Shown: positions 3,212 through 61,439, numbered from the stretch's first letter. The stretch: 64,000 bases of DNA from an uncultured Planctomycetota bacterium (GCA_903901045.1 CAIUPP010000075.1:1-64000), one strand, 5' to 3'. The notes: generated by a model from the sequence alone, not told the origin. Made by a program: numbers and translations.

Positions 3212-6200
3212 TCACTTCTCGACCGGGGCGATGGCAACTTCCATCGGCCCGTCCAGCTTGCAGGTGAACGTCAGCACCCCCTTCTTGTCCGACGTGACCT
3301 TTCGCTCCTTGTCGGTCTTGACCAGGTAGTCGGTCCTGGGGGCGATGACAAACTCGCCGCTCGCGGCGGTGATTTCCACCTTCCCTTTGCCATGGAGTGC
3401 CAGCCCCATCCCCTTGCCGTCATACCGGCGGAAGTTCACGTTGACCGGGGCGGCGCTCTTCAGGCGCACGGGGACTTTCTCGACCACGGCCGCTTCCTTC
3501 TCGTTCAGCGTCACTTCCGTGCGCACGCCATGCTCGTCCACGGTGGTCAGGAAGTCGGCGGGAATCTCCCATCCCTGCGCGTCGTAACGGTGCGCGCAGT
3601 GAAGTTCCGAATCCCCCGCCCAGCCGTAGACGCCCGGCTTGGCGGTGATCAGCCGTTCCTGCCCTTTCACATAGTTGGAGTGGATTTCCTGGAAGGTGAT
3701 CGGGAACTCACGGGAAACCATGGGAGGACGGGTGAAGAAGTCCTTGCCGTCGTTCGGATAATCCCCGTAGTAGAAGGCCAGGCTGCCCAACTTCAACTTG
3801 TTGAGCGTATCGTAGTAGAACTCCATCTCGTTGGTGAAGTTGTAGGCATTGGAGAGGGTGACCACGCTGGGGGCCAGGTGGGTCGAGGCGTCCTCGACGA
3901 GTTCCTTGTCCCAGACGATGTAGGTCTCCTTGCCAATGGTGCGCGTGATGACGGAGTTGTTGGCGACCACCTGCGCCCCCTTGTCCCGCATCTTGCGCGA
4001 AAACGCCGCGAGGGCGTCCTGCGAGAGCAGCAGCACGGAGCCCACCTTGCGGGTGATCGTTTTGCTCTTCGGATCGATCTCCGCCGTGTGGCCGTCCCAC
4101 CGGTCATAGGTGTACTCGCCGCCGTACGCGGTCATGAAGCCGTCCATGAAGACGCCTTTGCAGCCCATCTCATCCACCATGACGTCGGCGCTGCGCATGA
4201 GCTCCTTGCCGAAGCTGTTATCCAGGGTGGGATAGAGGGCGTACCAATGCCAACCCTCCTTCTTCCGCTGGTCGCTGAGGTACGCGCCTTCCTGCCCCTC
4301 GTAGTAGATTCCCTGCTTGCCGCTGGCGGTAATGACGCGCGAGTCGGGGAACGTTTCTTCCGGCTTGTTCGTGCAATACAGGCTGTGGGCGACGTGGAAC
4401 ATCGCCTTCACATCCGGGCAAACCTTGTAGATCCCGGCGGCTTGCGTCTTCACCCGCTCCATTTCCTTCGGGTACCGGAGGAAGTCGATCCCATCCACGG
4501 TGACCTGCGGATCGTCGGCGGGGTGGTCCAGCGAGGTGAAATTGATGTACTTGATATTGCGAAGGGTGAAGTACTCTTGGGTGGGGACTCCGCGCCGGCC
4601 CAGGAACCGGTCGTAGTACAGGGCCATGCCCCCCTCCACCTTCCCGTTGCGCCCTTCATCGGCGCGGATCTGATTGATGAAGTCATAGTAGTCCGCGGTG
4701 CTGTTCAGGTAGAGCGACCATTCCAGCGTATAGGACGCCCCCTTGTCCAGCGCAAACTGCGTGCTGCCGATGGAGGATCGGTCCGGACCGAAGTCCCCCT
4801 TCGATTGGATAATGAAAACGTCATCCAGCGCCACGAACCCAAGCCCGAGGCCCGGCTTCTGCAGGAGCAGCGTCGGGTTGCCCTGGAGCGGGGCGTCGGT
4901 TTTCGCCGCGCGGCATTCCGCGCCGGCCAGGCACGCGCTGACGATATTCCTGCCCTGGGTCACCAAGTTGTTCTTGAAGAGAACGGCGATCGGCTCCCCC
5001 GTCAGGTTCGTCAGAGTGTCCTGGACGTTGACGTGCGTCGGGAGCAGCCGGATGGTTCGGTCGAGCTTGTAGAACTTGCCCGAGGCGGTCACCTGGAAGG
5101 TCCGATCATCCACCTTTCGCGTCGTCACTTTCCATTCCTTCTCGCACACCCCTTCCGCAGCGGCGGAAAGGCCCAGCAGGTTGAATTCGCCGTTCGGCCA
5201 AGAGAAGGCCGACTCCACCGGATAACTCTCGCCGCCGACTTTCAAATTGAACGCACCGCCGGCCGCCAGTTCCACCTGGTAGGCCGGAGGCGCGGCGGGC
5301 GCGGGCAGGAGCGCGACGGTCTTCTCCGCGGGGGATGCCGGCGTGACCGGCGCATACGGAATGGCCACGGGCGCTCCAGTCTGATGGACCGCTTTCCCGG
5401 CGGCGTCTCTCACGACGGCCGCCACCTGGTATGCTCCCGCGGGCAGCTCCTTGATGGAGAAGGTGTATTCGCAACGCCCCGTCTCGGGCATCGTCTTGAT
5501 CTTCTGAATCACCGCAGGCGCCTGGCCCGGCAACCCAAGTTCCAGCGCCGCCTGCTGCCCGGCTTGAAGGGGCAGAATGCCCGCGAAATCGGCCACCGCC
5601 GCCATGCTCCCGTATTCATAGTGCGGGTACGTGGTCAGTTGAATTTTGCCGACCCAGGAGGCGTCCTTGCCGTGGCGCGCAGCCCCCTGCTGGTAGAGTT
5701 TAATGACCTCCTCCGCAGAAAGCGCGCGTTGATACAGGGACACCTCATCCATCAGGCCATAGAAGGACTGGTCGGCCTGTGAAAGCGTGAAGGGCGCTTT
5801 GGCGGGAGCGGAATCCAGAAGATCGAACTGCGTATCGGCATGAGCGTCGATGTACAGGTTGGCGCTGTTGCCGCGGCGGGTGATGACCAGAAAATAGTAG
5901 TTGTTGTTGTCGAGAGCGCGGCGCGACATGGCGAAGCGCATCTTGCCGGCTTCGGCGCAGTGGCGGAAACTGACCTTGCCCGAGTCGCCGTCGATGCGCA
6001 GCAGGTAGCCGGAAGTGGGGTAATTATCTCCCCCGTCGAGGATGGCCCAGTTGGTCGAGGGGTTGGGAAACCCCGGGGACGCCAGCTTGAGCCAGACCGC
6101 GATGGCGCGGTCGCCGGGAAAGTTGAACTTCGGCTTCGTCCCGAGGTCCACGTAACTGCCCGGCTTGAAGCTGAGCGCGCCGCCGGCGTCGGTCTTCACC

Positions 6201-6976
6201 CAGGCGGCGCCGTGGATAGTGCCGTCGTTGCCGTTGCCGCTATGGTCCTTGAGGAGTTCGCCCGCTCCTTCCTCAAACGTGTAGTGCGCGAGGAGGCCGT
6301 CCCCCGCCTGGACCGGCTTGGGCGCGGCCGCCTTCACGTCGTCAGGCTTGGCCTCCGCCACCGGTTTGACCTCCACCGGCGGTTTGGCATCGGCCGGCTC
6401 TCCCGCGGCGGAAACATATCCGATGAACGCGTCGTCGAACCAGACCGAGCCGACATATCTTTCCGCGATGCAGTAAAGCAGCGTGCGTTCGACCTCAGCC
6501 CCCCCGACCGGGACGCGGTTGGCCGCGAGCCGCCAGTCCGTTCCGCCCCCCTTGAGCAGGGCGGTGTTCTCGATGAGTTTGCCCCCCTTCAGGTAAATCT
6601 GGGCGTAGATCCGCACCTGCGCCCCTTCCGGCAGCGCCGGCTCCGCGCGCACCCATGCGCCGAAATCCACGGCGTCGACGGCGCCCGCGCTCGCGGCGGT
6701 TCCGGAGTACGCGCCATAGCCCTTGGCCTTGTCCTTTGCATCGACACGCAGACTCTGCTTGCCGTCATGAGCGACGGCTTTGTCCGCAGCGAACTTGTCG
6801 GCGCTGTAGAAGCTCCAGGCGTCATTGGCGGGGTTGCCCGTCAGGCGCTCCATGCCCGGATCGGCCAACAGGTTCTTCGGTGAGAACTTCGTGATGGCTT
6901 CACCCGGAACGACGTCAGAGAAGGCCGGCCACGCGAATAAGACGAAAAATCCCAGCGTCACGAGGAATCTCTTCAC
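3212..6976 (-). CDS. Giant secreted CBM-LamG-TIM-barrel hydrolase of an uncharacterised family
   Basis: 1254 residues from a GTG start preceded by GGAGGAG at 8 bp; the reading frame stays open far upstream but only this start gives a signal peptide (residues 1-20). Modules: CBM4/9-like sandwich (about 30-190), Pro/Lys/Ala linker (190-222), LamG (226-430), a beta-rich region like the supersandwich preceding many glycosidase barrels (565-760), a TIM-barrel-like region (780-1110) and a C-terminal beta domain. Asp945 in GVFMDGF and Glu1028 in LVEDASTHL stand where retaining glycosidases place nucleophile and acid/base; DRWDGHTAEIDP follows. Paralogues here are at 48454, 51602 and 21957. The 48454 protein aligns from LamG onward, while its CBM half is a separate gene. 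It is probably the distal gene of the LacI-pseudopilin module A. Hydrolase activity is inferred; the substrate is unknown. Confidence 0.72.
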   Translation of the reverse strand: MKRFLVTLGFFVLFAWPAFSDVVPGEAITKFSPKNLLADPGMERLTGNPANDAWSFYSADKFAADKAVAHDGKQSLRVDAKDKAKGYGAYSGTAASAGAVDAVDFGAWVRAEPALPEGAQVRIYAQIYLKGGKLIENTALLKGGGTDWRLAANRVPVGGAEVERTLLYCIAERYVGSVWFDDAFIGYVSAAGEPADAKPPVEVKPVAEAKPDDVKAAAPKPVQAGDGLLAHYTFEEGAGELLKDHSGNGNDGTIHGAAWVKTDAGGALSFKPGSYVDLGTKPKFNFPGDRAIAVWLKLASPGFPNPSTNWAILDGGDNYPTSGYLLRIDGDSGKVSFRHCAEAGKMRFAMSRRALDNNNYYFLVITRRGNSANLYIDAHADTQFDLLDSAPAKAPFTLSQADQSFYGLMDEVSLYQRALSAEEVIKLYQQGAARHGKDASWVGKIQLTTYPHYEYGSMAAVADFAGILPLQAGQQAALELGLPGQAPAVIQKIKTMPETGRCEYTFSIKELPAGAYQVAAVVRDAAGKAVHQTGAPVAIPYAPVTPASPAEKTVALLPAPAAPPAYQVELAAGGAFNLKVGGESYPVESAFSWPNGEFNLLGLSAAAEGVCEKEWKVTTRKVDDRTFQVTASGKFYKLDRTIRLLPTHVNVQDTLTNLTGEPIAVLFKNNLVTQGRNIVSACLAGAECRAAKTDAPLQGNPTLLLQKPGLGLGFVALDDVFIIQSKGDFGPDRSSIGSTQFALDKGASYTLEWSLYLNSTADYYDFINQIRADEGRNGKVEGGMALYYDRFLGRRGVPTQEYFTLRNIKYINFTSLDHPADDPQVTVDGIDFLRYPKEMERVKTQAAGIYKVCPDVKAMFHVAHSLYCTNKPEETFPDSRVITASGKQGIYYEGQEGAYLSDQRKKEGWHWYALYPTLDNSFGKELMRSADVMVDEMGCKGVFMDGFMTAYGGEYTYDRWDGHTAEIDPKSKTITRKVGSVLLLSQDALAAFSRKMRDKGAQVVANNSVITRTIGKETYIVWDKELVEDASTHLAPSVVTLSNAYNFTNEMEFYYDTLNKLKLGSLAFYYGDYPNDGKDFFTRPPMVSREFPITFQEIHSNYVKGQERLITAKPGVYGWAGDSELHCAHRYDAQGWEIPADFLTTVDEHGVRTEVTLNEKEAAVVEKVPVRLKSAAPVNVNFRRYDGKGMGLALHGKGKVEITAASGEFVIAPRTDYLVKTDKERKVTSDKKGVLTFTCKLDGPMEVAIAPVEK

Positions 6977-7142
6977 GGCGTTTCTCCTCCATTCGGAATT
7001 TCCGGGGTGACAGCGCATTGCATCGCGCGATAGATGGCTGGTTGCCCGGTTGCCCAGATGAGCAAAAGTGCGATTCAGTACAGCACGCGACAGCGGGAGC
7101 CATGCATCCTCCCGCCGTCGCGCGTCCGGACAGCAGGTCGCG

Positions 7143-7397
7143 TTAGTAATTGCCTTCGCCATTAGTGTCAAGGCCGGCGTTCGTGTCAAACATGTGCCAG
7201 ACGGCCACGCCGCTGCACTGGCCGAAGCCCGACCAGGCGTTGTACTGGTTCGGAGCGGTGCCGCTTCCATACAACGGCAGGTAGTACTCCGCCACGGTGT
7301 TGCCGCACATGCCGAACTGCATTTGATGCCCCGCCGTCGTTACAGGCGACACGGCGGCTGTTCTCCACCAGATGAGCCGCTGCTGAGGATCGCCCGC
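7143..7397 (-). pseudogene. 3' remnant of a pseudopilin-like (H-X9-D) gene
   Basis: 84 codons aligning with the C-terminal end of the intact pseudopilin gene just upstream: GDPQQRLIWW, then AEYYLPLYG, then VAVWHMFDTNAGLD, compared with [19 protein letters not shown] and [14 protein letters not shown]. An in-frame TGA lies directly before the homology (7398-7400) and there is no prepilin leader or transmembrane segment, so it cannot make an exported protein. The tail sequence differs from the neighbour, so it came from another paralogue and is not a fresh tandem copy. The downstream hydrolase gene starts 166 bp later. Confidence 0.72.
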
Positions 7398-7415
7398 TCA
7401 AGAGCGGCGCGCCCT

Positions 7416-7442
7416 GCGGAGGCCGCCGAAAGCGGCCTCCGC
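7416..7442. other. Perfect 11-bp hairpin after the module A pseudopilin gene
   Basis: GCGGAGGCCGC and GCGGCCTCCGC around a 5-nt loop, lying between the intact pseudopilin stop and the pseudopilin remnant. No T-run follows on either strand, so it may attenuate or stabilise mRNA rather than terminate fully. Confidence 0.55.
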
Positions 7443-7467
7443 AAGGCCACAGTCTCCCATGTCACAT

Positions 7468-8730
7468 TCAGCGCGCCGGAATGTCCACGCCCACGTCAAT
7501 TCCGGCGCTCGTGTCAAACAGGTGCCAGATGGCGATCGACCCGCGCTGATTCGGCGAAGCCGGCTCTCGGGAGTCCGGCGTGCCGTAGTAGGGCAGGTAG
7601 TAATCGCTTACGATGTTGGTGTAGCCGCCGTAGTAATTCGGAGTCCCGTAGGTGAGTATCGGCCACCACATGAGCTTCTGCTGCGGATCGCCGTACCACT
7701 TGGCGCTCCAATCACCGTAGAGGGCGTTGTAGCCGTCCCGGTGGCCGAAGTAGCCGTTTCCGGGAGTCCTCACGGTGGTGCTGGCGGCGGGGAAAGTCTC
7801 GCCCCAGGAGTCGGTGACGATCGCGCGTCCTCCCAGTTGCTTCTGGTTCTTGAACACCGGCTCGCCGGCGGTAATCACGCGGCGCGGCGTGGTGTAAAGA
7901 ATGCCGACCCTGCCGGTGGTGGGGCTGTTGTAGACGGAGTAGGTCCCATCCGGGTTGACGTAGGTCGGGAGCAGGCGGTAGTCATAGTGGCCCATCACGG
8001 CCTTGGCGCTTGAGTAGTAATCCGAGGCAGCGAAGTCCTTGAGCCAGCCCCAATCGGCATACATGATCGCCTTGCCGTCCAGGGCTCCCCTGCCGGAGAC
8101 GGCGCGCTTGACCTCCGTCAGCGTCGTTGCGGCATAGGTGGTGACATCAGCCACCTGGTCCACCGGCATGTTCGTGGAACTCGGGCAGAAGAAGACGTTC
8201 ACGTCGCCGAGATAGCCGCTGGCCGCCAGGTTGCCCAGCCCGACCGGGTTCATCGTCGGATAGGTTCCGGGCTTCGTATTCGCTCCTGCGCCGATCCCAG
8301 GGTTCCAGCCGCTGAAGACCGTGCGGTAGTCAATGACCGGATTGTAGAAGTTGCCATAATAGGCGGCCCCGCCCGTGGGCTGATAGAAGGTGGCCACCGT
8401 ATTATACGCCGCATCGGCTCCGGTGAGCCGCCCATCGGTCACGAGCCCGTAGTCATACTGCTGGGAGTATGCGGGGGTGGAACCGGCGGGAAAACCAACC
8501 CATTTCCCCCAAGCGGGCCAAGAGGGGAAATAGCCGTTGGCGTCGCTGCAATAACTTTCCAAGGCTCTGCTCATCTGGCTCAGGTTATTCAGGCAGGCCG
8601 TACGGCGCGCCTTTTCCCGCGCGGCGGCCAGCGCCGGCAGAAGCATCCCGGCCAGAATGGCGATAATCGCAATGACCACTAGCAGTTCAATGAGAGTGAA
8701 CGCAGAAAGCCACGTTCTCAAGCTCTTCAT
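7468..8730 (-). CDS. Pseudopilin-like protein, prepilin N-terminus and H-X9-D motif (module A)
   Basis: 420 residues. Residues 1-10 form a short basic leader, followed by the type IV prepilin core [18 protein letters not shown] with Glu at +5, so a prepilin peptidase should cleave before Phe; the -1 residue is Ala, not the usual Gly. A helical spine continues through [14 protein letters not shown]. The long C-terminal globular domain carries [13 protein letters not shown], the H-X9-DG signature of DUF1559-like proteins with DG changed to DW. No secretion ATPase, platform protein or peptidase is nearby. The gene follows the LacI gene at 8816 by 85 bp with GAGGAGAGG before ATG. Paralogues are at 54194 and 58986. 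A surface-exposed or periplasmic filament or glycan-binding role is inferred. Confidence 0.88.
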
Positions 8731-8815: not shown

Positions 8816-9901
8816 CTAAGACGTTGCCGGATTACTGATAGGCGCTGATGCATGGTTCGGCGTTCGGCGTTTCGCGCCGGTGGAGGCCCGGACGACCAAC
8901 TCGGGCAGGAGCGTCACGGCGCGCGGGACGCCGATGTCCCCAGCCAGCCGCCCCCGGAGCATGCCCCAGCAAAGCTCCATCATCTCCCGGATCGGCGCGC
9001 GCATGCTCGTCAGTGGCGGGCGGGCGAACCGCGCATGGTCCGTATCGTCATAGCCGCACACCGCCACGTCATCGGGCACCCGCAGGCCGCGATTGAACAG
9101 GCAGTTCATGGCCGCCAGGGCAATGACGTCGTTCGCCCCCATCACCAAATCCACTTTCAGACCCTCTGCCAGCGCGCGGTCGAACGCCTCGTACGCCGTT
9201 TCATAAAGAGGAAAACCGTGCGACGGGCGCTCCGTGTAACCCACCTTCGCCACCAATTCCATTCCCCAATGCCGCAGGGCGCGTTCGATGGAATGGAATT
9301 TCAGGGAGTGCGGAAGGTCATTCATTTCTCCCTCATACCCGAGAATGCAGATGCGCTGAAATCCCTGCTCGTGCGCATGGTCCACCAGCAGCCGCATACC
9401 GTATGACGCGTCCAGTTTCACTACGTCCGCCTCGGAAGGCTGCGACCCGTTGAAGGCCACCACCGGGATCCCGAACTCCTTGAGCTGACCGACCAAGCTG
9501 TTGATCTCCTCATCGGGCGCGTGGGGGAACAGCAGCATTCCGCGCCAGTGCTGTTCCAACGCGCTGTTGAGGAGAGAGGGAATTTCCGTGCGTTCGTAGT
9601 TCACTCGGACAAGTTTCATGCCGTCCGCCCTAGCCAGGGTCTCCAGGCGGCCGAGCGCCTCCTCCTGCGGGGTCATTTCCGCTATGGGCGGGGTCGCCAG
9701 GGCGACCAGATTGGTCTGCCCCATTGACAGGGAACGCGCATGCTGGTTGGGGACGTAATTGCTGCGCTTCGCGGCCCGCTCAACCCGAGCGCGAACATCC
9801 GGGTTCACCCCCGGTAGGTTGCGCAAGGCGCGGGAGGCGGTGCTGATGGACACCCCCACCTCTTTTGCTAAATCGCTCAGCATAATACGCTTAGCCACCA
9901 T
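8816..9901 (-). CDS. LacI-family transcriptional regulator (module A)
   Basis: 361 residues: N-terminal LacI helix-turn-helix (about 7-55; DLAKEVGVSISTASRAL, then a hinge at YVPNQHARSLSMGQTN) and a periplasmic-binding-protein-like effector domain (about 62-340; conserved GYDDTDHARFARPPLTSMR near the end). It is full length and intact. It heads a minus-strand cassette with the pseudopilin-like gene and the large hydrolase. It is very close to the regulator at 55648 and more distant from that at 60375. Candidate operators between its promoter and start codon suggest autoregulation. The ligand is probably a sugar released by the hydrolase (inference). Confidence 0.93.
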   Translation of the reverse strand: MVAKRIMLSDLAKEVGVSISTASRALRNLPGVNPDVRARVERAAKRSNYVPNQHARSLSMGQTNLVALATPPIAEMTPQEEALGRLETLARADGMKLVRVNYERTEIPSLLNSALEQHWRGMLLFPHAPDEEINSLVGQLKEFGIPVVAFNGSQPSEADVVKLDASYGMRLLVDHAHEQGFQRICILGYEGEMNDLPHSLKFHSIERALRHWGMELVAKVGYTERPSHGFPLYETAYEAFDRALAEGLKVDLVMGANDVIALAAMNCLFNRGLRVPDDVAVCGYDDTDHARFARPPLTSMRAPIREMMELCWGMLRGRLAGDIGVPRAVTLLPELVVRASTGAKRRTPNHASAPISNPATS

Positions 9902-9904: not shown

Positions 9905-9918
9905 TGCAATCGTTTCCT
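9905..9918. promoter_or_regulatory. Candidate proximal LacI operator (module A)
   Basis: TGCAATCGTTTCCT, a half-conserved version of the distal site, placed 3 bp outside the lacI start codon. The module B regulator has a better palindrome at exactly the same distance from its start codon. Confidence 0.45.
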
Positions 9919-9970: not shown

Positions 9971-9984
9971 TGCAACCGTTTGCA
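9971..9984. promoter_or_regulatory. Candidate LacI operator (module A)
   Basis: TGCAACCGTTTGCA, a near-palindrome with TGCAA/TTGCA arms around a central CG, the classical LacI-family operator form. It lies 14 bp downstream of the lacI -10 hexamer, where a bound repressor would block initiation. Confidence 0.68.
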
Positions 9985-48425: not shown

Positions 48426-48453
48426 ACCGATGTTCCTTCTGAAAGTGGTGCCG

Positions 48454-51400: not shown

Positions 51401-51609
51401 CCCGGCTTGAAGCTCAGCGCCGTTCCGGCATCGGTCTTCACCCACTTGGCGCCATGGATCGTCCCGTCGTTCCCGTTGCCGCTATGGTCCTTGAGGACTG
51501 CGCCGGCTCCTTCTTCAAACGTGTAGTGTGCGAGCAGGCCATCCCCCGCCGCAAGGGCGGGGATAGCGCTTAGCGCCAACGCGCTCATCAGGAACAGGAT
51601 TTTACTCAT
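48454..51609 (-). CDS. Secreted LamG-TIM-barrel hydrolase of the uncharacterised DRWDGH-type family
   Basis: 1051 residues with signal peptide (LFLMSALALSAIPALA). LamG at about 23-225, a beta region 360-560, a barrel 575-905 and a C-terminal beta domain. It is highly similar to residues 225-1254 of the protein at 3212, including GVFMDGF (about Asp742), AYGGEYTYDRWDGHTAEIDP and VANNSVITRTIGKETYI. The conserved Glu is in LVEGATTHLAP. The start overlaps the preceding stop by 8 bp (ATGAGTAA) and GAGGAG precedes it inside that gene. It is likely a glycosidase paired with the preceding paralogue for a two-step attack on the same polymer (inference). Confidence 0.74.
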   Translation of the reverse strand: MSKILFLMSALALSAIPALAAGDGLLAHYTFEEGAGAVLKDHSGNGNDGTIHGAKWVKTDAGTALSFKPGEYVDVGSKPEFNLPGDRAITAWVKLAAPGFPDGTTNWVIFDGGDSYPGSGYMLRIDGDATVVSYRHCADGGKLRTATSRRHVENNTYYYVVLSRRGNTASLYIDGIMDVQFDLLDSAPATRPFSISAAAQSFYGLMDDVALYHRALTTEEVVAAYREGAARHGKDASWIGKIRLTPYCHYDNGTVTVDSDFGGVLPLQAGQKASLELGLPGQAPAQTESIQKMPDTGRYEFTFPLKDLAAGKYRIAAVVRDAAGRAVNEAAVSIALPYAPAKVPAPSEKSVALLPKPADPVPYRFELGASGGFQIGVAGETYPVESSFSWPKGDFNLLGLAAPAAGKCEKDWKVTTRKVDDKTYVVSASGKFYAIERTIRLLPTHVNVQDKVTNNTPEAIGILFKDSIVTEGRGIAAAWLAGAESRNAKSDAVLQSDPTLFLQKPGLGLGLVALDDVFIVQSKGDFDPARSSLYSTQFALDKGASYTLEWSLYLNSSGDYYDFINQVRNDEGRNGKVAGGMALYHDRFSGRFGVPTREYSDIRKIKYLNCTSMDHPVDDPQVSLEGIEFLKYPKEMARTKDQVAAIHKLCPDLKVMFHVAHSLYSNNKPTETFPDSRVIAADGKQAIYYEGQEGAYFSDERKAQGWRWYALYPTLDNSFGRELMRSVDVMMDELGCNGVFMDGFMTAYGGEYTYDRWDGHTAEIDPAARTLTRKVGSVLLLSQDALVAFSRKMRDKGGQVVANNSVITRTIGKETYIIHDKELVEGATTHLAPTVVTLSNAYNFTNEKEFYYDTLNKLKWGSLVFYYGDYPNSGKDFFTRPPMVSREFPITFQEIHSNCVKGEERIITANPGVYGWAGDSALHCAYRYDAQGWEIPADYLTTVDGNGVRTEVTLADKESAVVAKVPVRLKAAMPVNVVFRQYDAKGVALRLNGKGSVEITAGSGEFAIAPATVYLVKAGEVAKVASDKKGLLKFTCKLDGPMEVTIAPSDK

Positions 51610-54103
51610 AGGGATTCTCCTCGATGACGGCCACCCCCCCTGCGGGGAGCGCGCCCAGGTCCACGGTCCACGTGTCGCCCGTCCTGGCCATCGGCACGGG
51701 GTTCTTCACGCGCCGGCCGTCGGAATTCCACACCAGCACCTCCGGCTTGCCCGCCTGTTTCCAAACATATTTCCCGGCCACGCAGGTGACGGTCCTTTCC
51801 TTCCCCTCGATCCATCCCGCATGCAGACCCACCGGGGTGAGAGGGAAGGAGTGCGTCAGGATGCCGTACGCCTCGTATTCGGTCGGCCCCAGCCCGAGAT
51901 TGGAAGCGTAGTAATAGGTCAACGCGCCCAGCCTGAGCCGCTGATTGATCTGGTCCACCAGCGTGGAGGCCTTCCCCATCTCCTCCTTGGTGAAGTTCGT
52001 CCACATGTTCGACAGGCCGATGGGGGAATAGAGGTGCGTGCTCGGGACGTTGTTGGTGCCTTCGACGAAGCTCATGACGGGCAGCGTGAGCATCTCTTCG
52101 GAGGCGGCGGACTCGTTGCAGACCACGATGCCACCCTTATCGAAGATCTTCTTCACCATCTCCGCCTGCGCGGGCCCGTGGAGAATCGGCACGTTGTTCC
52201 TGGTTCGAATGAGCGCGTACGTCTTCGGGTCGATATCGGCGGAATGGCCGTCCCACCGGTCATAGGAGACCACACTGGGCAGCGTGAATATGTCGAAATA
52301 GATCCCCTTGAACCCGCATTCGTCCATGAGGAAATCCACGTCCGCCATGAGCTTCTTGTGATAGGAGTTGTCCAGCGCCGCGTAGCCGTAGATGTATTGA
52401 TACGTCGGCTCGACGCAGCCGTAGCCGGAGACGACGTAGGAGCCGTCCGCGTTCTTAAGGAGGCTGTCGGCGTTCTCGTGCTTGCTCCATTGCGCCGGGT
52501 CCTTCGGCACTCTGAAGAACGTGATTTCGCGGGAAGCCAGGAGCCAGAACCCCGGCAGCACCGAGGTCACATTGTTCACGGCAGCCAGGGCGAGCTTCTT
52601 ATATCGGACCCGGTCGTAGGAAACGGGGTCCGGCTCGCTGCAATAATAGTCCCACCACGGCTCGCCGGCCCCGAACCGCCAGCACTGCGGCGCGATCTTC
52701 GAGCGGATTTCATCCGGCTTGGCCTGCGCCCACCAGGCGTTGTAACGGAAATCCTCCCAGGGGCCGATGAGGGTGAAGTTCAGCCCGTCATCCGCCCGGA
52801 TGCGATTGATGAAGCTGAAATAGTCCGGGTCGCTCGAAAGATACATTCTCCAGCGCAGCGTGTAGGACTTCTTCGGCGCCAATGCAAGCTGGTTCGTGCC
52901 GAACGCCACGACGGCCGGGTAGTTCTCCACCCAGAACTGGTTGCGCAGCACGGTGTCCTTGGCATAGAGGCCGATCTGCAACTCCTTGGAGTTGATGAAC
53001 AGCGTCGAGTTGCACGGCCCCACCATGCTGGCCACTTCGAGCGCGCCGCCGTTGGGCATTCCGCCGATCCAGAGGACATCCTGAGGCTGCGCCAGCCCCA
53101 CGGTGTTCATCGCCATCACCGGCAGAATCTGGTCGGTCAAGTTCTCGATGGTGTCGAAGAAATCGAGCCGGTCCTCCGTGACGCGTATTTCGCGCCGGAT
53201 GCTGTGTTGCGCGCCGCGCGCGGAAATCGTGATCGAATCTCCCTTCACGACCGCCTCCGGCTTCCACCCCTTCTGGCAACCCGTCAGCGCGCCGCCCAAC
53301 AGGTTGATCCCGGCGTTCGGCCAGGTGAAGGAGCTCTCCATGACAAGAGAGGCCGCCCCGCGCGAGATCTTCAGGCCGCCGAACTCATTGACGGCGACGG
53401 TGGCGTTCTTCACCGTCAACGACTGGACGGGCTTGAACCCCTCCGCCGTTATCCCCAGCTTGCGGCTGGAGGCCACGCGCGGCTTCTGGAAATACCCCAC
53501 TTCCAGCGGATCGGTGACCAGAACGATCTCTTCGGGCTTCGTGGCCCCGAAGTCTTTATACTTGGTGATGTTCTGCAGTTTGAGGACGTTCGGACGGTCC
53601 GTGAAGAGCAGGTCCTCCACGCGAAGGATGAACCAGTACTTCTCGCGCGTCTGCACCGGCTCGGCCAGTTCAAACGTCCAGGCATCGAAGGAGGGGCTGA
53701 AGAACGTGTTCACGGCGTTGTCGAACATGCAGTGGCCGGTTTTGTAGACCTTGTCATTGTACACGTCCGGCCGGTTGATGAGGCGTATGCGCGCCCAGTC
53801 GTCCACGGCCCGGACGGGACGGTTGTTCACCCAGATCGCCAGGTAGGGACTCCAGCCGTTCAGGCGGTCGTTCTGCAGGCGCGTGCGAAGAGCGATGACG
53901 GTCTCCACACCTCCGCGCGCCGGAACCGCCGGGAGCTGGAACTCGACGGACTCGCCCGAGATGATCCGCACCGGTTTGTCGGCCTTCCAGACCAGGTCCA
54001 TCTTGCCCGCCTCGCGCATCGGCTTGTCGGCCGGCTCGGCGCGAACGATGGGGCAGATCGCGACTGCAATCAATACGAGCGCCCAATGCGCACAATGTCT
54101 CAT
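51602..54103 (-). CDS. Secreted TIM-barrel hydrolase of the uncharacterised DRWDGH-type family
   Basis: 833 residues from the ATG with GGAGGA 7 bp upstream; a start at 54139 is possible but adds no leader. Signal peptide 1-22. Beta domains 25-240 and 240-420, barrel about 440-770, C-terminal beta cap. GIYFDIF (Asp604), VVSYDRWDGHSADIDP (613-626) and FVEGTNNVPSTHL (Glu681) align with the proteins at 3212, 48454 and 21957, and the final GLHAGWIEGKERTVTC matches them too. It has no LamG. It overlaps the downstream paralogue by 8 bp and lies 90 bp after the pseudopilin-like gene, so module B pairs two family members. Confidence 0.72.
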   Translation of the reverse strand: MRHCAHWALVLIAVAICPIVRAEPADKPMREAGKMDLVWKADKPVRIISGESVEFQLPAVPARGGVETVIALRTRLQNDRLNGWSPYLAIWVNNRPVRAVDDWARIRLINRPDVYNDKVYKTGHCMFDNAVNTFFSPSFDAWTFELAEPVQTREKYWFILRVEDLLFTDRPNVLKLQNITKYKDFGATKPEEIVLVTDPLEVGYFQKPRVASSRKLGITAEGFKPVQSLTVKNATVAVNEFGGLKISRGAASLVMESSFTWPNAGINLLGGALTGCQKGWKPEAVVKGDSITISARGAQHSIRREIRVTEDRLDFFDTIENLTDQILPVMAMNTVGLAQPQDVLWIGGMPNGGALEVASMVGPCNSTLFINSKELQIGLYAKDTVLRNQFWVENYPAVVAFGTNQLALAPKKSYTLRWRMYLSSDPDYFSFINRIRADDGLNFTLIGPWEDFRYNAWWAQAKPDEIRSKIAPQCWRFGAGEPWWDYYCSEPDPVSYDRVRYKKLALAAVNNVTSVLPGFWLLASREITFFRVPKDPAQWSKHENADSLLKNADGSYVVSGYGCVEPTYQYIYGYAALDNSYHKKLMADVDFLMDECGFKGIYFDIFTLPSVVSYDRWDGHSADIDPKTYALIRTRNNVPILHGPAQAEMVKKIFDKGGIVVCNESAASEEMLTLPVMSFVEGTNNVPSTHLYSPIGLSNMWTNFTKEEMGKASTLVDQINQRLRLGALTYYYASNLGLGPTEYEAYGILTHSFPLTPVGLHAGWIEGKERTVTCVAGKYVWKQAGKPEVLVWNSDGRRVKNPVPMARTGDTWTVDLGALPAGGVAVIEENPYE

Positions 54104-54193
54104 CGCGGGTCCTCCGAAGACGAAGAGGGGAACAAGCATGCCCCGCCCTTACCCAAGCGGGGCATGCATTTCCGGCAGGAGCGTCGATCCGCC

Positions 54194-55555
54194 TTAGAAA
54201 TTATCTATCCCGTTGCCTACGTCGAACATATGCCAGAGGTCCCCGCCGCACTTGAGATTCTGGCCGCCGGTGCCATCCAGCTTGGTCCACCGGGTAATGC
54301 CGTTGAACGCCGAAGTGCGCGCGATGGTCTCATCCTCGGCCCAGCCGAGACGGGCTTCAATCGCGCTCCCCAACGGGCACTGCCACCACATGATCTGTCC
54401 CTGCGGATCGCCAAACCACTTCGCGCTCCAGTCGCCGTAGAGCACATTGTAGCCGTCCCGGTGAGCGTAAAGCCCCATGCCGGGCAGCGGGATGGTCACG
54501 GCGGCGTTGCTCGTCGGATTATCGACGTCGTTCGGCTGGGAGAAGGAGTCGCTGACCAGCGAGCGTCCCCCCAGAAGTTTCTGCGTCTTGAACGGCGCGC
54601 AGCCCGCCGACGTGCGCGTTCCCGGCTTGGTGTCCTTCATGAGCACTTCCGTAATCAGCTCCGATCCGGTGCTCCAGCCGTTTGAGATCGCGCAGGGCAC
54701 GTCGCGATAGTTGTAGTTCGACTGCGTCACGAGGAACTCGCCCGGGCAGTCCGCCCACAAGGTCCGGTGAGTTGTAGCGTACGCGTCAACCCAGGTGGAA
54801 AGAGTGGACAGGACGGGATGCGAAAGCGAGAACGCGTCGAACCCGCCTGCCTTCTTCAACGCCCCCAGGGTGTGCAGGCTGGAGGTCTGTCCGCCCACTT
54901 TCCCGGAAACATCGGCGTCGCTCGGCATGTTGTCGCCGGCGGAAGGACAGAAGTAGCTGCGCGCGTCGCCCAGATACCCGCCGGCCAGCAAGTAGCCCAG
55001 CCCGACAGGCGCCTGAGCGAGGCTGCGATCCGCCGGGAGCCCCATGACGTAGGCATCGACGCCCGGGGTGGTCGGCACCGTCGTAGCCACAGGGGTCGGA
55101 CCCCACGCGCCACAGTAGATGGTGCGGTAGCGAAGAAGCGGGAGCCGGTTGCCGAACGAATCGGTGATCACCGTCCCACCCCACATCAGCACGCCTTGCA
55201 CGGGCCCCGTCCCCGTCCGAATCGTCTGGTTGAGCTTGGTATCGACCACCAGGCCCGCGTCGGTCGGGAACTGTCCGAGGTAGTAAGGCCCGGTCGCCAG
55301 ATTGCCCCATGCCGCCGGGAAGTACGCCCCGCCCGCAGCCGCCCACGTCGGAAGATACCCGGAGTAGTCGCTGCAGTAGCTTTCCAATCCCCTGCTGAAC
55401 TGGCTCAGGTTGTTCAGGCACGCTGTCCGGCGCGCCTTTTCACGCGCTGCCGCAAGAGCCGGCAGGAGCATTCCGGCCAGTATTGCAATGATTGCGATGA
55501 CCACTAGCAATTCAATCAACGTAAACGCCGACAGCCACGTCCTGAATTTCATCAT
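54194..55555 (-). CDS. Pseudopilin-like protein, prepilin N-terminus and H-X9-D motif (module B)
   Basis: 453 residues. The prepilin leader and core [18 protein letters not shown] are identical to those of the modules A and C proteins, again with Ala at -1 and Glu at +5, followed by [18 protein letters not shown]. The globular part (about 60-440) differs widely from its paralogues except near the end, where [17 protein letters not shown] holds the H-X9-D motif, and FDVGNGID closes the protein. The variable middle suggests ligand specificity lies there. Tandem ATGs (55555 and 55552) leave a one-residue ambiguity. It is 92 bp after the LacI gene and 90 bp before the first hydrolase. Confidence 0.88.
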
Positions 55556-55647: not shown

Positions 55648-56727
55648 CTAGACCCGGATAGCATCCGCAGCAACCACCGGCGACGGTTCGCGCCGCTTGG
55701 CGCCCGTGGACTCGCGGACAACCAAATCAGGCAGCAGCGTCACGGCGCGCGGCTCACCGGTCTCTTCCCGCAACCGTCTCCTCAGCATACTCCAGAGCAG
55801 TTCCACCATCTCATCCACCGGCCCGCGAACGCTGGTCAACGCCGGACGGGCGAAGCGCGCGTGGTCGGTGTCGTCATACCCGCTCACGGCCACATCCTCA
55901 GGAACCCGCAGCCCCCGGTTGAACAGACAGTTCATAGCCGCCAGGGCAATCACGTCGTTCGCCGCCAGGACCATGTCCACCTTCAGGCCCCCCGCCAGCG
56001 CGCGGTCGAACGCCGCATAGGCGGCCTGATAGAGGGGATAGCCATGCGAGAGGCTATCGGGGTAGCCTACCTTGGCCACAAGTTCCATTCCCCACTGCTG
56101 CAGCGTCCTCTCCAGAGAACGGAATTTCGCGGAGTTTGGCAGGTCGTTCAACTCCGGCGCATACCCCAGGACGCACACCCGCCGCCGTCCGCACTCGTGA
56201 GCGTGATCCACCAGCAGGCGCACCCCGTGCGCCTGGTCCAGCATGACGACATCCGCCACGGAGGGGTGCGGGTCGTTGAAAGACACCACGGGAATCCCGA
56301 GCCCCTTGAGTTGGACGCACAGTTGTCTTGTTTCCTCCTCGGGAGCGTTGGGAAACAACATCATCCCCCGCCAATGCTGCTCCAGGGCGCTGTTCAGGAG
56401 CATGCCACTTTCGGAACGCTGGTAGTTCACACGCACCAGCCGCATGCCGTCCGCCCTGGCGAGCGCTTCGATCCGGGCCAACGCATCTTCCATGGGCGTC
56501 ATTTCGGCAATGGGGGCCGTGGCGAGAGCGACGATGTTGGTCTGCCCCATCGAGAGGGATCGGGCGTGATGGTTGGGCACATAATTATGGCGCTTGGCCG
56601 CGCGTTCCACCTGCACGCGGATATCCGGGCGCACCCCGCTGAGGTTGCGCAACGCCCGCGACACGGTGCTGGTGGAAACCCCCACCTCCCGGGCCAAGTC
56701 AGTTAGCATGACACGCTTGGTAGCCAT
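55648..56727 (-). CDS. LacI-family transcriptional regulator (module B)
   Basis: 359 residues: HTH DLAREVGVSTSTVSRALRNL (about 10-29), hinge NYVPNHHARSLSMGQTN, and an effector domain ending GYDDTDHARFARPALTSVRG. It is clearly the closest relative of the regulator at 8816 along the whole length, so the modules A and B regulators arose by duplication, and their operators are correspondingly alike. It should repress its own promoter and the seven-gene minus cluster down to 44617, unless internal promoters exist. The gap 56728-56997 holds only its promoter and operators plus a short hairpin at 56875-56896. Confidence 0.93.
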   Translation of the reverse strand: MATKRVMLTDLAREVGVSTSTVSRALRNLSGVRPDIRVQVERAAKRHNYVPNHHARSLSMGQTNIVALATAPIAEMTPMEDALARIEALARADGMRLVRVNYQRSESGMLLNSALEQHWRGMMLFPNAPEEETRQLCVQLKGLGIPVVSFNDPHPSVADVVMLDQAHGVRLLVDHAHECGRRRVCVLGYAPELNDLPNSAKFRSLERTLQQWGMELVAKVGYPDSLSHGYPLYQAAYAAFDRALAGGLKVDMVLAANDVIALAAMNCLFNRGLRVPEDVAVSGYDDTDHARFARPALTSVRGPVDEMVELLWSMLRRRLREETGEPRAVTLLPDLVVRESTGAKRREPSPVVAADAIRV

Positions 56728-56730
56728 GAC

Positions 56731-56745
56731 TGCAACCGCTTTGCA
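56731..56745. promoter_or_regulatory. Candidate proximal LacI operator (module B)
   Basis: TGCAACCGCTTTGCA, 3 bp outside the lacI start codon. Its centre is about 66 bp from the distal operator, the same spacing as in module A, which would allow DNA looping. Confidence 0.6.
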
Positions 56746-56797: not shown

Positions 56798-56811
56798 TGC
56801 AACCGCTTGCA
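56798..56811. promoter_or_regulatory. Candidate LacI operator (module B)
   Basis: TGCAACCGCTTGCA, differing from the module A site at one base. It lies 14 bp downstream of the lacI -10 hexamer, as in modules A and C. Confidence 0.72.
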
Positions 56812-56825: not shown

Positions 56826-56854
56826 ATTATAGTGTTCAATCGACTCCTCCGCAA
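56826..56854 (-). promoter_or_regulatory. Promoter of the module B lacI gene
   Basis: On the minus strand TTGCGG (56849-56854), a 17-bp spacer and TATAAT (56826-56831), the same design as at 9999-10027. Confidence 0.72.
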
Positions 56855-56997: not shown

Positions 56998-57999
56998 CTA
57001 GCCCTGTTTCTCATAAACCGCCACGTCAATAAATGCCCGCTTTGCCGGAGATTTCGGCGCCCATCGCGCAAGCAGCGCCGTCTGGCGGAATCCGGCCCCC
57101 CGCAACGCCCGCTCCTTTTCCGTCCAGCCCGCGTCCGCATAGGCGATAAAATGGCCGCCGGAAGGCAGTGGCAGAGCAGCGAGCAGGTCCCCTACCCGGT
57201 CCCAGAAATCGGGATGGCAGAAGAGATCCACCAGCCGCAACTCCGCCCAGATCGGGTGATTGCCGACCGCGGCGAAACCGACCGGGGCGCCGCTTTGCCT
57301 GCTTCGCAGGAGGAACGCGCCTGGCGTCTTCCCTTCGACCGGCAGGCGTTCGTCATACAACAACCTCAAGATGTATCCATCGCCGTCGCTGCGCTCGATC
57401 ATTCCCAGCCGGGCGAAGCGAACCTGACCCTGGAAGCCGCCGGCGCACAGCGGCGCGAGAATGGGCCATTGCGCCAGCGTCAACGGCTCTATCCCGGTCG
57501 CCGCGGGCGCAAACCAGGCGGCCTCGAACTCCTCCCGCGTTGCGGCGTAGTACTCCATGTAACCGGAGTTCTCTTCGAGTCCATGAAACCCATGCCGGGC
57601 ATAGATTCGATAGGCCGGGCTCTCGAAGCCGGTGCCGAGGAAGAGCGCCTTGCCGCCGTGCGCGCGAAAGTGCTCCATCTGGAGGCCCATCAATTTGTCG
57701 CACGCCCCTTTGCGGCGATCCTCAGGCCGCGTGAAGACATGGCCGAGCACTCCCACGCCATCGACCTCGCTCGTCATGATGTTCGAGAAGGGAATGCCAT
57801 TGCGATGGAGGACGTAGAAGCGTGCGTCGACCCCCGCCGGCTTCCCGAGAACCTCCAAGTTGCCCCAGTTCCACGGCTCTCCCTTGTGCCCGAGCAGCCC
57901 CATGAGGGGAGCGGTCCACACCGGGTCCGGCGCGAAGAGGACCGCCGCCTCCACGCGCTCCCCGCTGTCCAGCACCACCGCGCCAATATCTTCCTGCAT
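56998..57999 (-). CDS. GNAT-family N-acetyltransferase
   Basis: 333 residues from ATG 57999, which has GAGGAG and AAAGG upstream. The N-terminal GNAT fold (about 10-155) includes the acetyl-CoA loop HVFTRPEDRRKGAC (87-100) and ESPAYRIYARHGFHGLE (about 126-142), the usual last helix and strand. Residues 165-333 form a second, degenerate GNAT-like half (ILRLLYDERLPVEG, AFLLRSRQSGAPVGFAAVG). There is no signal peptide. It is the last gene of module C, 57 bp after the amidohydrolase. The acceptor is unknown; an amino sugar or other small amine would fit. Confidence 0.8.
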   Translation of the reverse strand: MQEDIGAVVLDSGERVEAAVLFAPDPVWTAPLMGLLGHKGEPWNWGNLEVLGKPAGVDARFYVLHRNGIPFSNIMTSEVDGVGVLGHVFTRPEDRRKGACDKLMGLQMEHFRAHGGKALFLGTGFESPAYRIYARHGFHGLEENSGYMEYYAATREEFEAAWFAPAATGIEPLTLAQWPILAPLCAGGFQGQVRFARLGMIERSDGDGYILRLLYDERLPVEGKTPGAFLLRSRQSGAPVGFAAVGNHPIWAELRLVDLFCHPDFWDRVGDLLAALPLPSGGHFIAYADAGWTEKERALRGAGFRQTALLARWAPKSPAKRAFIDVAVYEKQG

Positions 58000-58056
58000 C
58001 GCCTTTCTTCTCCTCAACCCTGGATGATTCGCCGGCCGCTCCGACGCCGCGCGGCC

Positions 58057-58869
58057 CTATGCGGGCAGGATCTTCCGCGCGTTCTCCCGCAGAACCTCCC
58101 TGGCCTTGCCCCCCCACTGATACGACCTCCCGGCGCGCTGAAAGAAGTCCTCGATGAACTGCGCGCCTCGAACAGGGTCCTCCATGCCCGGCCGACCGTA
58201 GCAGGAGTCGGTGGCAAACATCATCCGGTCGCAAACAGTCTCGACCGCATCGCCCGGAACTTGGCACCGCCGGTCGAGGTGGTCGATCAGCCAGCGGTAA
58301 TCCACGAAACCGCAGAGCGAGCAGTAGATTTTCGGATAGTAGAACAGCGACTCGAACAACTCGTTGAGCCAGGGGAAGCCCATGTGTCCCTGAATCAGCG
58401 GCAGTTCCGGGAATGCGGCAGCGATCCCGTCCAGCATCGAGGGGCGCATGTTCGTCGGCCCAAGAGACTGCGCCGGGGTCATCTCCTCGCGCGTGTTCTT
58501 CAGAATGATGCCGACGTGGAAGAGAATCGGCATCTTGAGGATGGCGGCGCGCTCGTATATCGCATAATAAGCGGGGTCGTCGTAGGGCTTCAGCGGCCGA
58601 ATGGCCTTCAGGCCGACAAACCCCTTTTCCTTCATCCGGTCCACTTGTTCCGGTCCCTGCGCAAAGTTGATGTATCCGAACGGAATGAAGAATCCCGGGT
58701 ACCGCCGCGCCACCTCCAGCATCTCCTCCTCGGATGCCAGATCTTTCAGGTCGCTCCCTCGGTAGTAGGAAACCTGCATGAGCCAGACCTGCTCGATCTT
58801 GCCGGATTCCGCCAGCGCGTCGAGCCCCTGGGGTTTCGACCAGAGATGGGCGTGAGTATCGATGAACAT
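58057..58869 (-). CDS. Amidohydrolase-2 family metal-dependent hydrolase
   Basis: 270 residues from ATG 58869, where the family metal motif MFIDTHAHLW (His6, His8) opens the protein and GAGGGAA precedes it; the longer open frame to 58989 encodes nothing family-like. IPFGYINF, PILFHVGIIL (His about 140), LIQGHMGFPW (His about 178) and MMFATDSCYG (Asp about 228) complete the metal and catalytic set of amidohydrolase-2 TIM barrels, which hydrolyse or decarboxylate small ring compounds and sugar lactones. Cytoplasmic. With its GNAT neighbour it gives module C a metabolic tail in place of secreted hydrolases. Confidence 0.85.
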   Translation of the reverse strand: MFIDTHAHLWSKPQGLDALAESGKIEQVWLMQVSYYRGSDLKDLASEEEMLEVARRYPGFFIPFGYINFAQGPEQVDRMKEKGFVGLKAIRPLKPYDDPAYYAIYERAAILKMPILFHVGIILKNTREEMTPAQSLGPTNMRPSMLDGIAAAFPELPLIQGHMGFPWLNELFESLFYYPKIYCSLCGFVDYRWLIDHLDRRCQVPGDAVETVCDRMMFATDSCYGRPGMEDPVRGAQFIEDFFQRAGRSYQWGGKAREVLRENARKILPA

Positions 58870-58985
58870 CTTGTTCCCTCTTTCCTGCGTGGCCATGTCC
58901 GCGACGGTATCAGGAACGCGGCTGCCGGGGTGGGCGCCCCGGCAGCCGGTGGTTTGCGCGCTGAATCGCCGCTGGACTGAATCGC

Positions 58986-60260
58986 TCACCTGCCGCGCAC
59001 GGAGTTTACATCAATCCCGTTGGCCATGTCGAATCCGTGCCAGATATCCGGAAAGTGCGAGGCATCCGAGCTGAACGAGGGCTCCGTCGCGTCCGCCGGC
59101 AGGTTCGAGCAGAACCCGCCCAGCGTGCATCCGTTGGCGTCCACACCGACGTAGCTGACCCAGACCTGGGGAGACGTATCCCACATGACCTTCTGCTGAG
59201 GGTCTCCGAACCACTTGGCCGTCGCATCGCCATACAGCACGTTGTACCCGTCGCGGTGGCCGAACCAGCCGTCGCCGGGCATATTGGCAATAGCTGCCAC
59301 CCACGGGTTGTTCGCGCGCTCGTAGCCGTCCACCACAATCGCGCGCCCCGCAAGCAGCTTGCGCGTCTTGAAGAAGGGCAGTTGCGGATCGTGCCAGACC
59401 CCCGGCTTCGTCCACGGCACCTGAAGCTTGTGCCCCTTGAAGAACGCGCTGGCGGGATTGGCGTCCATCACCGCCACTTCCTGAACGTAGACCCCCGCGC
59501 CGCGATAGGCGTACGTGGACTCCAGGCGGCGGGAGCTGGCGAACCAGTATGTGGACAACAGCCCCACCGTGGCCCAGTTGCCGTGCGTCAGGATCCGCGA
59601 ATCGGTGCCCCCCGCCTGCTTCACTTCCGCCAGCGTCGTGGCGCCCGAGCGCAGCAGCCCCGAGCCGGCCCACATCTCCTTATTGTAGTAGTTGGCGAAC
59701 AGGTCGTCCGGCATGTTCGTTGAGGTGGGGCAGAAGAAGACGCCCAGGTCCGCCAGGTACCCGCCCGAGGCCAGGAAGCCCAGCCCCTGCGGCGCCATGG
59801 CGAGTTTGCCGACCCCATAAACCGCCGGCCCGGAGGTGAACTGCTCACCCTGCGCAATCACCCGCGGCAGAAAGCGGCTCATGCCGGTCCATGAATTCGG
59901 CGCACCGCCGGCGCCGACCGCCCACGCGTGGACCTGATCATTCGGCGTCGTCCCCTTCGGGTCCTTGTACACTCCGGCATCCTGCGTGGCGCCGTTGCTG
60001 ATCCCCGACTGCCAGGGACCGAAGTTATTCGCCATGTCCCACGTCACGTTGAACGGCATGTAGTCCGAATAATCACTGGTGTAGCTTTCCAGAGCGAGGC
60101 TCATTTGTTTCAGGTTGTTGATGCACGCCGTGCGCCGCGCCTTCTCCCGCGCCGCCGCCAAAGCCGGCAGCAGCATCCCGGCCAGAATAGCGATGATCGC
60201 TATCACCACGAGCAGCTCGATCAAAGTGAACGCAGACAGCCATGTTCGTAAGGACTTCAT
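58986..60260 (-). CDS. Pseudopilin-like protein, prepilin N-terminus and H-X9-D motif (module C)
   Basis: 424 residues from the ATG with GGAGGAG 4-10 bp upstream; a start at 60320 would displace the prepilin leader. The first 50 residues ([18 protein letters not shown] and [18 protein letters not shown]) match modules A and B almost exactly. Near the end [17 protein letters not shown] carries H-X9-D followed by Ala, and [10 protein letters not shown] is the closing block. The middle is poorly conserved. It lies 115 bp after its LacI gene and 117 bp before the amidohydrolase. Confidence 0.88.
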
Positions 60261-60374: not shown

Positions 60375-61439
60375 CTAACGTTCCGTGGATTGACGCACGA
60401 CCAACGACGGCAGCACCAGCATCGACTGCGGCTCTCCGCCCTCGCCCGCAAGTCGGCGTTTGAGCAGGTTCCAGCCCAACTCAACCATTTCATCGATCGC
60501 CAGCCGGACGGTGGTCAGCGACGGGCGCACATAGCGCGACCATTCCGCGTCGTCAAACCCCGTCACCGCCACGTCCTGGGGGACGCGCAGCCCGCGATCG
60601 ATCAGGCAGTTGATCGCCGCCACGGCCATCGTGTCGTTAGCGGCCATCAACAGGTCCGGACGCAGCGCGCGCGCCTGAGGCGTGTTCATCGCATCGCAGG
60701 CGGCGACGTAAAGTTCCGGCCCCAGCTCAACGCTCTTGGCCACTCCGATCAGGCCAGCCAGTTCCATGCCGCGCCTTTGCAGTTCAATTTCAAGGAAGCA
60801 GTACTTCGGGGAGTTGGCCAGAACGGCGATCTCCTCTGTCGCGGCCATCACGGCAACGGTCCGGACCCCGCGTTGCGCCGCGTGGTCGAGGATCAGGCGG
60901 ACGCCGTGCGCCCGGTCGAACGTCACGTAATCCAGCCCCGCCCAGTTCGGCGGCGAGAGCACGACGCTGGGAATGCCGTACTTGGCCAGCGTCGCGATGA
61001 GCTTCCGGGTGACGTCCTCCGGCGCATTCGGAAAAATGAGCGCGCCGTCCCAATGCTGCTCCAGGGCGATCTCGACGACCTTGTCGGATTCCCCCGCTTC
61101 GTAGCGGAAATGAATGAGGCGGCGGTTCTCCGCATGGATCAGCGACTCGATCCGGGCCACCCCGGTGAGGTGAGGCGCCATCACCGTCACAGGCGGCGTG
61201 ACAAGGCCGATGAGGTTCGTGCGCCCAAGCGCCAGAGACCTCGCCTGCAGATTGGGCACATAGTTGAGCTTCCTGGCGGCGCGCAAGACGCGCGTCCGCA
61301 CGTCGGGGCTGACTCCGTACTCATCTCGAACGGCGCGGGAGACGGTGCTCAACGAAACGCCCGCCTCCTTCGCGACGCCGTCAAGGGTTATGCGCTCAGC
61401 CCCGCGCTTTAGGGAGCGTTCTCTACCCGCACTGGCCAT
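60375..61439 (-). CDS. LacI-family transcriptional regulator (module C)
   Basis: 354 residues. HTH LDGVAKEAGVSLSTVSRAVR (about 19-38), hinge NYVPNLQARSLALGRTN, effector domain ending GFDDAEWSRYVRPSLTTVR. It is more distant from the modules A and B regulators than they are from each other, and its operator differs in one half-site accordingly. A candidate operator at 61477-61490 lies between its start and the divergent LamG-DUF6067 gene, so it probably controls both directions. Confidence 0.92.
   Translation of the reverse strand: MASAGRERSLKRGAERITLDGVAKEAGVSLSTVSRAVRDEYGVSPDVRTRVLRAARKLNYVPNLQARSLALGRTNLIGLVTPPVTVMAPHLTGVARIESLIHAENRRLIHFRYEAGESDKVVEIALEQHWDGALIFPNAPEDVTRKLIATLAKYGIPSVVLSPPNWAGLDYVTFDRAHGVRLILDHAAQRGVRTVAVMAATEEIAVLANSPKYCFLEIELQRRGMELAGLIGVAKSVELGPELYVAACDAMNTPQARALRPDLLMAANDTMAVAAINCLIDRGLRVPQDVAVTGFDDAEWSRYVRPSLTTVRLAIDEMVELGWNLLKRRLAGEGGEPQSMLVLPSLVVRQSTER

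Follow-up and report, generated by a model that had tools for sequence, protein, structure and literature searches.

Regulator-first cassettes of prepilin-like proteins and carbohydrate-related genes recur in the genome of an uncultured planctomycete

Background

What joins a LacI-type regulator, a prepilin-like protein and a set of secreted carbohydrate-related proteins in one gene row, and why should this row be repeated? The question is raised by a stretch of 64,000 nucleotides from an uncultured Planctomycetota bacterium, called the window here, which belongs to a genome assembly of 4.77 Mb in 154 contigs. A first-pass annotation had described three such cassettes in it and read them as a modular glycan-capture system in which the pseudopilin gives substrate specificity. 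From its gene content the organism appears to be a planctomycete of the anammox class, itself with no hydrazine synthase hit. The hydrazine synthase alpha domain is a marker of anammox bacteria; members of the same class (family f4) have it, and the phylum-wide DUF1559 counts fit Planctomycetota. One genome of this class (G012) has 16 HZS_alpha-domain matches, mostly in frames of more than 1000 aa.

Results and discussion

Gene content of the three cassettes

Cassette A
8816..9901 (-): lacI A, 361 aa, Pfam LacI and Peripla_BP_3; 73% identity with lacI B
7468..8730 (-): pseudopilin A, 420 aa, N_methyl and SBP_bac_10
3212..7270 (-): enzyme A, LamG_3 and an unclassified C-terminal region; 74% identity with 48454-51609

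Cassette B
55648..56727 (-): lacI B, 359 aa, Pfam LacI and Peripla_BP_3
54194..55555 (-): pseudopilin B, 453 aa, N_methyl and SBP_bac_10; 40% full-length identity with A
51602..54139 (-): first B effector, 845 aa, no Pfam family; about 29% identity to the C-terminal part of enzymes A and B2
48454..51609 (-): enzyme B2, LamG_3 and a C-terminal region as in enzyme A; 74% identity with enzyme A
47397..48494 (-): protein with no Pfam family
46691..47365 (-): protein with a weak DNRLRE/CBM96 match
44617..46662 (-): Glyco_hydro_42M / GHL10-like glycosidase (Pfam)

Cassette C
60375..61439 (-): lacI C, 354 aa, Pfam LacI and Peripla_BP_3; 49% identity with lacI B
58986..60260 (-): pseudopilin C, 424 aa from the conserved ATG, N_methyl and SBP_bac_10
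58057..58989 (-): Amidohydro_2 protein (Pfam)
56998..58017 (-): GNAT-like protein, weak matches to Acetyltransf families

After coordinates, Pfam domains and gaps were rechecked, all three cassettes proved real, with 85, 92 and 114 bp between lacI and pilin in A, B and C (C counted from the conserved ATG). The start of pseudopilin C is most likely the ATG at 60260; a longer ORF with a GTG start reaches 60320, but the residues it adds are not conserved. For enzyme A the true start is probably near 6976, as a signal-peptide-like segment is found some 100 residues inside the ORF; that of the cassette C amidohydrolase is probably near 58896, likewise within the listed ORF. All three LacI proteins combine an HTH with a periplasmic-binding-like domain (Pfam), as in the LacI/GalR family. 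The amidohydrolase and GNAT assignments of cassette C were upheld, the former by its Amidohydro_2 match and the latter by weak Acetyltransf matches. Among the "secreted hydrolases" proposed for A and B, the Glyco_hydro_42M / GHL10-like protein of B has a glycosidase match, but enzyme A and the first two B proteins have no catalytic Pfam domain and are putative hydrolases.

The window genes that were scanned include no recognisable pilus machinery or transporter family, in agreement with the first-pass annotation, and no SusC/SusD pair was found there by Pfam; Rfam gave no match within the window. Other genes of the window were also noted. A GntR cassette on the (+) strand has a regulator-enzyme layout without a pilin: a GntR regulator with a sugar-binding-type domain (34679-35824) is followed after 41 bp by an 821-aa protein without Pfam family and by an MGH1-like glycosidase. 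There are six URO-D-like genes in the 64 kb (10328-11377, 11385-12548, 24716-26536, 40106-41071, 41092-42225 and 42398-43390), and these are probably not haem enzymes but paralogues of a methyltransferase-like type. In addition, 2276-3073 and 43673-44539 each encode a small stand-alone LamG_3 protein (265 and 288 aa).

The layout recurs across the genome

The three cassettes are among about 35 in the genome. Profile searches found 63 DUF1559-type prepilins and 17 LacI genes, and gene calling placed 35 of the prepilins directly beside a LacI, GntR plus sugar-binding domain, GntR-FCD or GntR-SBP regulator; the other 28 have no LacI/GntR regulator directly beside them. A prepilin lies immediately downstream, on the same strand, of 10 of the 17 LacI genes, and two more LacI genes are divergent to one. 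Well under one such pair is expected by chance, and a count of at least 10 out of 17 LacI genes with a pilin next in line has a probability of about 1e-14. Of 45 PBP3-type regulators, 22 are immediately followed by a pilin and 7 more are divergent to one. GntR-PBP3, GntR-FCD, GntR-SBP_bac_1 and ROK regulators adjoin pilins as well. The gene caller was in-house, with approximate start codons, while PBP3/LacI-pilin adjacency was derived from HMM coordinates alone. The LacI-pilin-effector module is thus borne out in its layout, genome-wide and in the sister genus, but the regulator need not be LacI: several types can stand in for one another at this fixed position.

The effector set (n=32) comprised the first gene after each pilin, plus one second B-cassette protein. 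LamG_3 was its most frequent domain (11/32), with CBM9 in five, GH123_N in four and DUF4838 in four; rhamnosidase, rhamnogalacturonan-lyase-like and beta-helix domains were also found. Among control genes beyond the regulators LamG_3 occurred in 3/32, and glycoside hydrolases were also present. The LamG_3 enrichment after pilins is significant (p 0.03) but modest, because the genome is rich in carbohydrate genes throughout, including these control genes. The large downstream proteins have signal-peptide-like N-termini.

A conserved N-terminus on divergent heads

Alignment of pilins A, B and C confirmed that the first 50 or so residues are near-identical and that the heads have diverged; the H-X9-D stretch, with variants, is present in the cassette pilins. 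The proteins are type IV prepilin-like (PF07963 / TIGR02532), with N_methyl above cutoff and an FTLIE-type motif with Glu5, followed by a hydrophobic helix. The F, T, L and E of this motif are invariant in 63/63 pilins of the genome. In canonical prepilins the -1 residue is Gly. At the predicted cleavage site of these pilins it is Ala in 55/63, including A, B and C, and Gly in only 6/63, while most sampled homologues from genome G134 have Arg, Lys or Leu. Processing may therefore differ from that of canonical prepilins, and both processing and filament assembly are uncertain because most members carry Ala.

The match to DUF1559 / SBP_bac_10 (PF07596) is above the curated cutoff and covers only the first 40-100 profile positions; full-length matches (positions 1-267), as seen in other families of the phylum, were not obtained with these pilins. 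Against the GspG equivalog (TIGR01710) they score 32-37 bits, below the cutoff of 88.85, with the N-terminus alone matching. Neither a fold nor a sugar-binding family was detected in the heads: a PDB profile search returned N-terminal pilin helices only, plus two weak non-significant matches, and an AlphaFold model of pilin A, from an alignment of just the three window pilins, had a pLDDT of 29. No pilin relatives were found in viral contigs.

Synonymous codons of the invariant N-terminus agree in 46.6% of cases versus 47.1% expected by chance, so this segment is under protein-level constraint and has not been copied recently. Gene conversion was considered as the cause of the identical N-termini and rejected, as synonymous sites are saturated. 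Elsewhere the genome has 16 T2SSE ATPase hits and two prepilin peptidases (A24). The pilins lie outside machinery operons, and the nearest T2SSE is 6.6 kb away.

Predicted operators and hairpins

Operator-like elements, accompanied in A and B by a promoter-like box, precede the three lacI genes:

9971..9984 (-): operator A-O1 TGCAAACGGTTGCA, with TATAAT (9999-10004) some 20 nt upstream; pattern at just two genome sites
9906..9917 (-): second operator-like site A-O2 GGAAACGATTGC, immediately before the lacI A start
56798..56811 (-): operator B-O1 TGCAAGCGGTTGCA, with TATAAT (56826-56831) some 20 nt upstream
56731..56745 (-): second operator-like site B-O2 TGCAAAGCGGTTGCA, immediately before the lacI B start
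61476..61497 (-): operator-like palindrome C TTGGTATTGCAAGCGCTACCAA, imperfect

A palindromic operator with central CG near the promoter, clear in A and B and imperfect in C, again points to the LacI/GalR family. The spacing from TATAAT to palindrome is equal upstream of lacI A and lacI B, and TGCAANCGNTTGCA occurs in the 4.77 Mb only before these two genes. More generally, AANCGNTT or AACGTT is found upstream of 11/12 pilin-linked and 0/5 pilin-free lacI genes (Fisher p 0.001; C has the imperfect palindrome), and the strict form AANCGNTT upstream of 9/12 pilin-linked ones (p 0.009). Upstream of GntR genes AANCGNTT was seen in 2/27, and no CG-centred palindrome was found there; the lacI-pilin gaps also have no such operator palindrome. 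The predicted operators are consistent with one autorepressed transcription unit that starts at lacI.

A further element lies 3' of each pilin stop codon:

7411..7447 (-): hairpin after pilin A, stem of about 17 bp, fold z -5.98
54134..54169 (-): hairpin after pilin B, fold z -2.63
58919..58948 (-): hairpin after pilin C, perfect 12-bp stem, fold z -3.34

A stem of at least 12 bp follows 28/34 regulator-linked pilins, compared with 12% of other same-strand genes and 5% of regulator-pilin gaps, typically 20-35 nt beyond the stop codon. Against dinucleotide-preserving shuffles the median fold z is -3.24 after pilins and 0.15 after other genes (p 1.6e-10). A plain intrinsic terminator does not account for all of these hairpins, most of which have no U-tract. 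By analogy with known intercistronic stems, the hairpin could raise pilin over enzyme or cut read-through. In the sister genus the post-pilin hairpin is absent. About 30 further pilin ends in the genome have a strong stem-loop at a similar position, mostly of different sequence. Separately, a near-identical hairpin, GGTGGGGACACAATACTTTCC...GGAAAGTTTTGTGTCCCCACC, recurs in several intergenic gaps on contigs C43 (at the pilin end at 14174), C55 (near 17245-18708) and C31 (near 37263) of G000, and may be a small mobile repeat.

The likeliest reading is that every cassette forms a single autoregulated operon, and this is well supported. The sequence shows the gene order, operators before lacI and none in the lacI-pilin gaps, the same layout under other one-component regulators, a near-invariant pilin N-terminus on diverged heads, and the hairpin.

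Regulators, and hardly the pilin heads, follow the enzymes

Cassettes were compared by a top-tail permutation test alongside a rank-based Mantel test. Where enzymes are similar, regulator similarity is 0.39 versus 0.05 expected (p 0.0002), and pilin-head similarity 0.21 versus 0.18 (p 0.06; p 0.01 over all cassettes). The rank-based Mantel test of regulator against pilin was null, and it is a weak test at such divergence. The same split is seen between A and B, where regulators are 73% and enzymes 74% identical and pilins 40%, including the common N-terminus. Co-variation with the adjacent enzymes thus holds for regulators but not for pilin heads, which appear to vary almost independently of regulators and enzymes, themselves matched to each other. 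The proposal that the pilin is the substrate-specificity element is unsupported: enzyme similarity hardly tracks the heads, A and B are split, and pairings are not kept from one genus to the other.

In the sister genus (G001), 21/49 fetched pilins lie beside a LacI/GntR regulator, and 16/27 PBP3 regulators are adjacent to a pilin by HMM coordinates. Eight other genomes of the phylum were covered by sampling regulators regardless of pilins. Adjacency was found for 13/20 in G274, 6/17 in G134, 1/3 in G032, 3/15 in G216, 1/13 in G205, 1/6 in G131, 1/4 in G234 and 0/11 in G137. Rarity in relatives, which would have spoken against the module, is therefore a mixed picture: adjacency is common in the organism's own family, G274 and G134 but rare or absent in the other sampled genomes, and the layout recurs in distant families without being universal. 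Pilins of the other sampled families are shorter, and their N-terminal consensus differs genome by genome. Between host and sister genus, reciprocal best hits were obtained for 11 heads and 7 regulators, with none in common as a pair; judged by these hits, the regulator-pilin position is conserved between genera and the partners are not. The G274 genome (7.38 Mb, one contig) has 256 prepilin candidates and 150 PBP3-type matches (150 scored of 215 candidates).

Proposed mechanism and alternatives

The best overall explanation, to which we give an even chance, is an autoregulated operon whose pilin head captures polymer. Its order would be promoter, LacI operator, repressor gene, prepilin-like gene and secreted carbohydrate-related proteins. 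A small sugar-like ligand would lift repression, so that pilin and enzymes would be made together. The conserved N-terminal helix may engage a common membrane machinery, or one of T4P/T2SS type, encoded elsewhere, and the head would then be displayed outside the inner membrane. By stabilising the mRNA or terminating part of it, the hairpin may keep pilin in excess over enzyme. In the role that we prefer, in line with the "fishing rod" proposal for planctomycetes, the head would bind or retain polymer on the cell surface or within the periplasm during enzyme action, without being closely fitted to the substrate of its cassette enzyme. With moderate confidence we rank such binding or retention above a secretion adaptor and above simple membrane display. 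An extension that we hold only tentatively is that dozens of operons with their own repressors supply pilins with a common N-terminal core to one machine, the hairpin favouring pilin, and that filament composition would follow the sensed polysaccharide.

Under a secretion model the cassette pseudopilin would join a common type II secretion-like pseudopilus and aid export of the co-encoded large proteins. Their signal-peptide-like N-termini, the 16 T2SSE-type hits and an invariant pilin N-terminus closest to that of GspG fit this model, and a similar role was suggested for alginate lyases (PMC13274419). However, at about 400 aa the heads greatly exceed GspG in size, the score is 37 against a cutoff of 88.85, the pilins are not in machinery operons, with 6.6 kb to the nearest T2SSE, and the heads do not track the enzymes as an adaptor should; we regard the model as doubtful. 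Just as doubtful is membrane-anchored display, in which the prepilin-like N-terminus is a mere anchor for a solute- or polymer-binding head and no filament is formed. It would explain the -1 Ala of most members, the Arg/Lys/Leu of most sampled G134 homologues and the Pfam family name SBP_bac_10, and Tuwongella homologues fractionate with detergent-soluble material (PMC8567305). Yet the N-terminal conservation far exceeds what a simple hydrophobic helix needs, the genome has two A24 peptidases, and pilus-like fibres were observed in other planctomycetes (PMC5394234).

The remaining alternative, which we consider improbable, takes the adjacency as a by-product: an easily duplicated regulator-pilin unit would have been inserted before unrelated genes, and the enzymes would have no functional tie to it. 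The lack of any reciprocal best regulator-head pair common to both genera agrees with it, as do the near independence of heads and enzymes, the common carbohydrate genes in the control set and a hairpin that could limit transcription into the enzymes. Against it, saturated synonymous sites argue that no recent spread took place, regulator similarity follows enzyme similarity (p 0.0002), the operator is confined to pilin-linked lacI genes, and the adjacency recurs across several families.

Relation to known systems

The comparison with SusCD loci holds in part. Bacteroidota PULs likewise have a substrate-responsive regulator, a surface protein and enzymes per locus, in many copies per genome; here, in contrast, the surface candidate is prepilin-like and its head does not track the enzymes. 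DUF1559 / SBP_bac_10 prepilins number 74 in R. baltica (PMC2754498), 68 in P. limnophila (PMC10632474) and 91 in Tuwongella (PMC8567305). These planctomycete expansions have the same Pfam domain and N-terminus and also form dozens of paralogues, but regulator-first operons are not described in the parts of these papers covered here, and the heads reported here are longer and different, only the N-terminal part of the profile matching. In Verruconatronum alginivorum (Opitutales), with 67 pseudopilin homologues, an alginate-induced operon of polysaccharide lyases holds a PulG-like pseudopilin, in one proteome replicate; unlike here, it was treated as type II secretion, and no regulator-pilin architecture was described (PMC13274419). 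Pilin-like polysaccharide-binding fibres, or "fishing rods", have been proposed for planctomycetes, and dextran binds pilus-like fibres (PMC5394234, PMC12078418). The parts of both papers covered here assign no regulated gene set to these fibres, whereas candidate genes and their regulation are offered here. The pilin-glycan link of the first-pass annotation gains outside support from PMC5394234, PMC12078418 and PMC13274419.

The individual components, namely DUF1559 expansions, LacI/GntR autoregulation and CAZyme clusters, had been described before. In the openly searchable literature, no account turned up of regulator-first pilin operons as an architecture repeated genome-wide, of their operators or of the hairpin.

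Conclusions

DUF1559 prepilins are among the largest paralogue families of planctomycetes. Every regulator-linked pilin is encoded together with a sensor, a predicted binding site for it and a set of enzymes, which makes the system accessible to direct experiment. The analysis also separates two ideas that are usually merged, the match between regulator and enzyme and the near-independent pilin head. Judging from the genome, this polysaccharide-degrading organism probably deploys different filament-like proteins for different foods.
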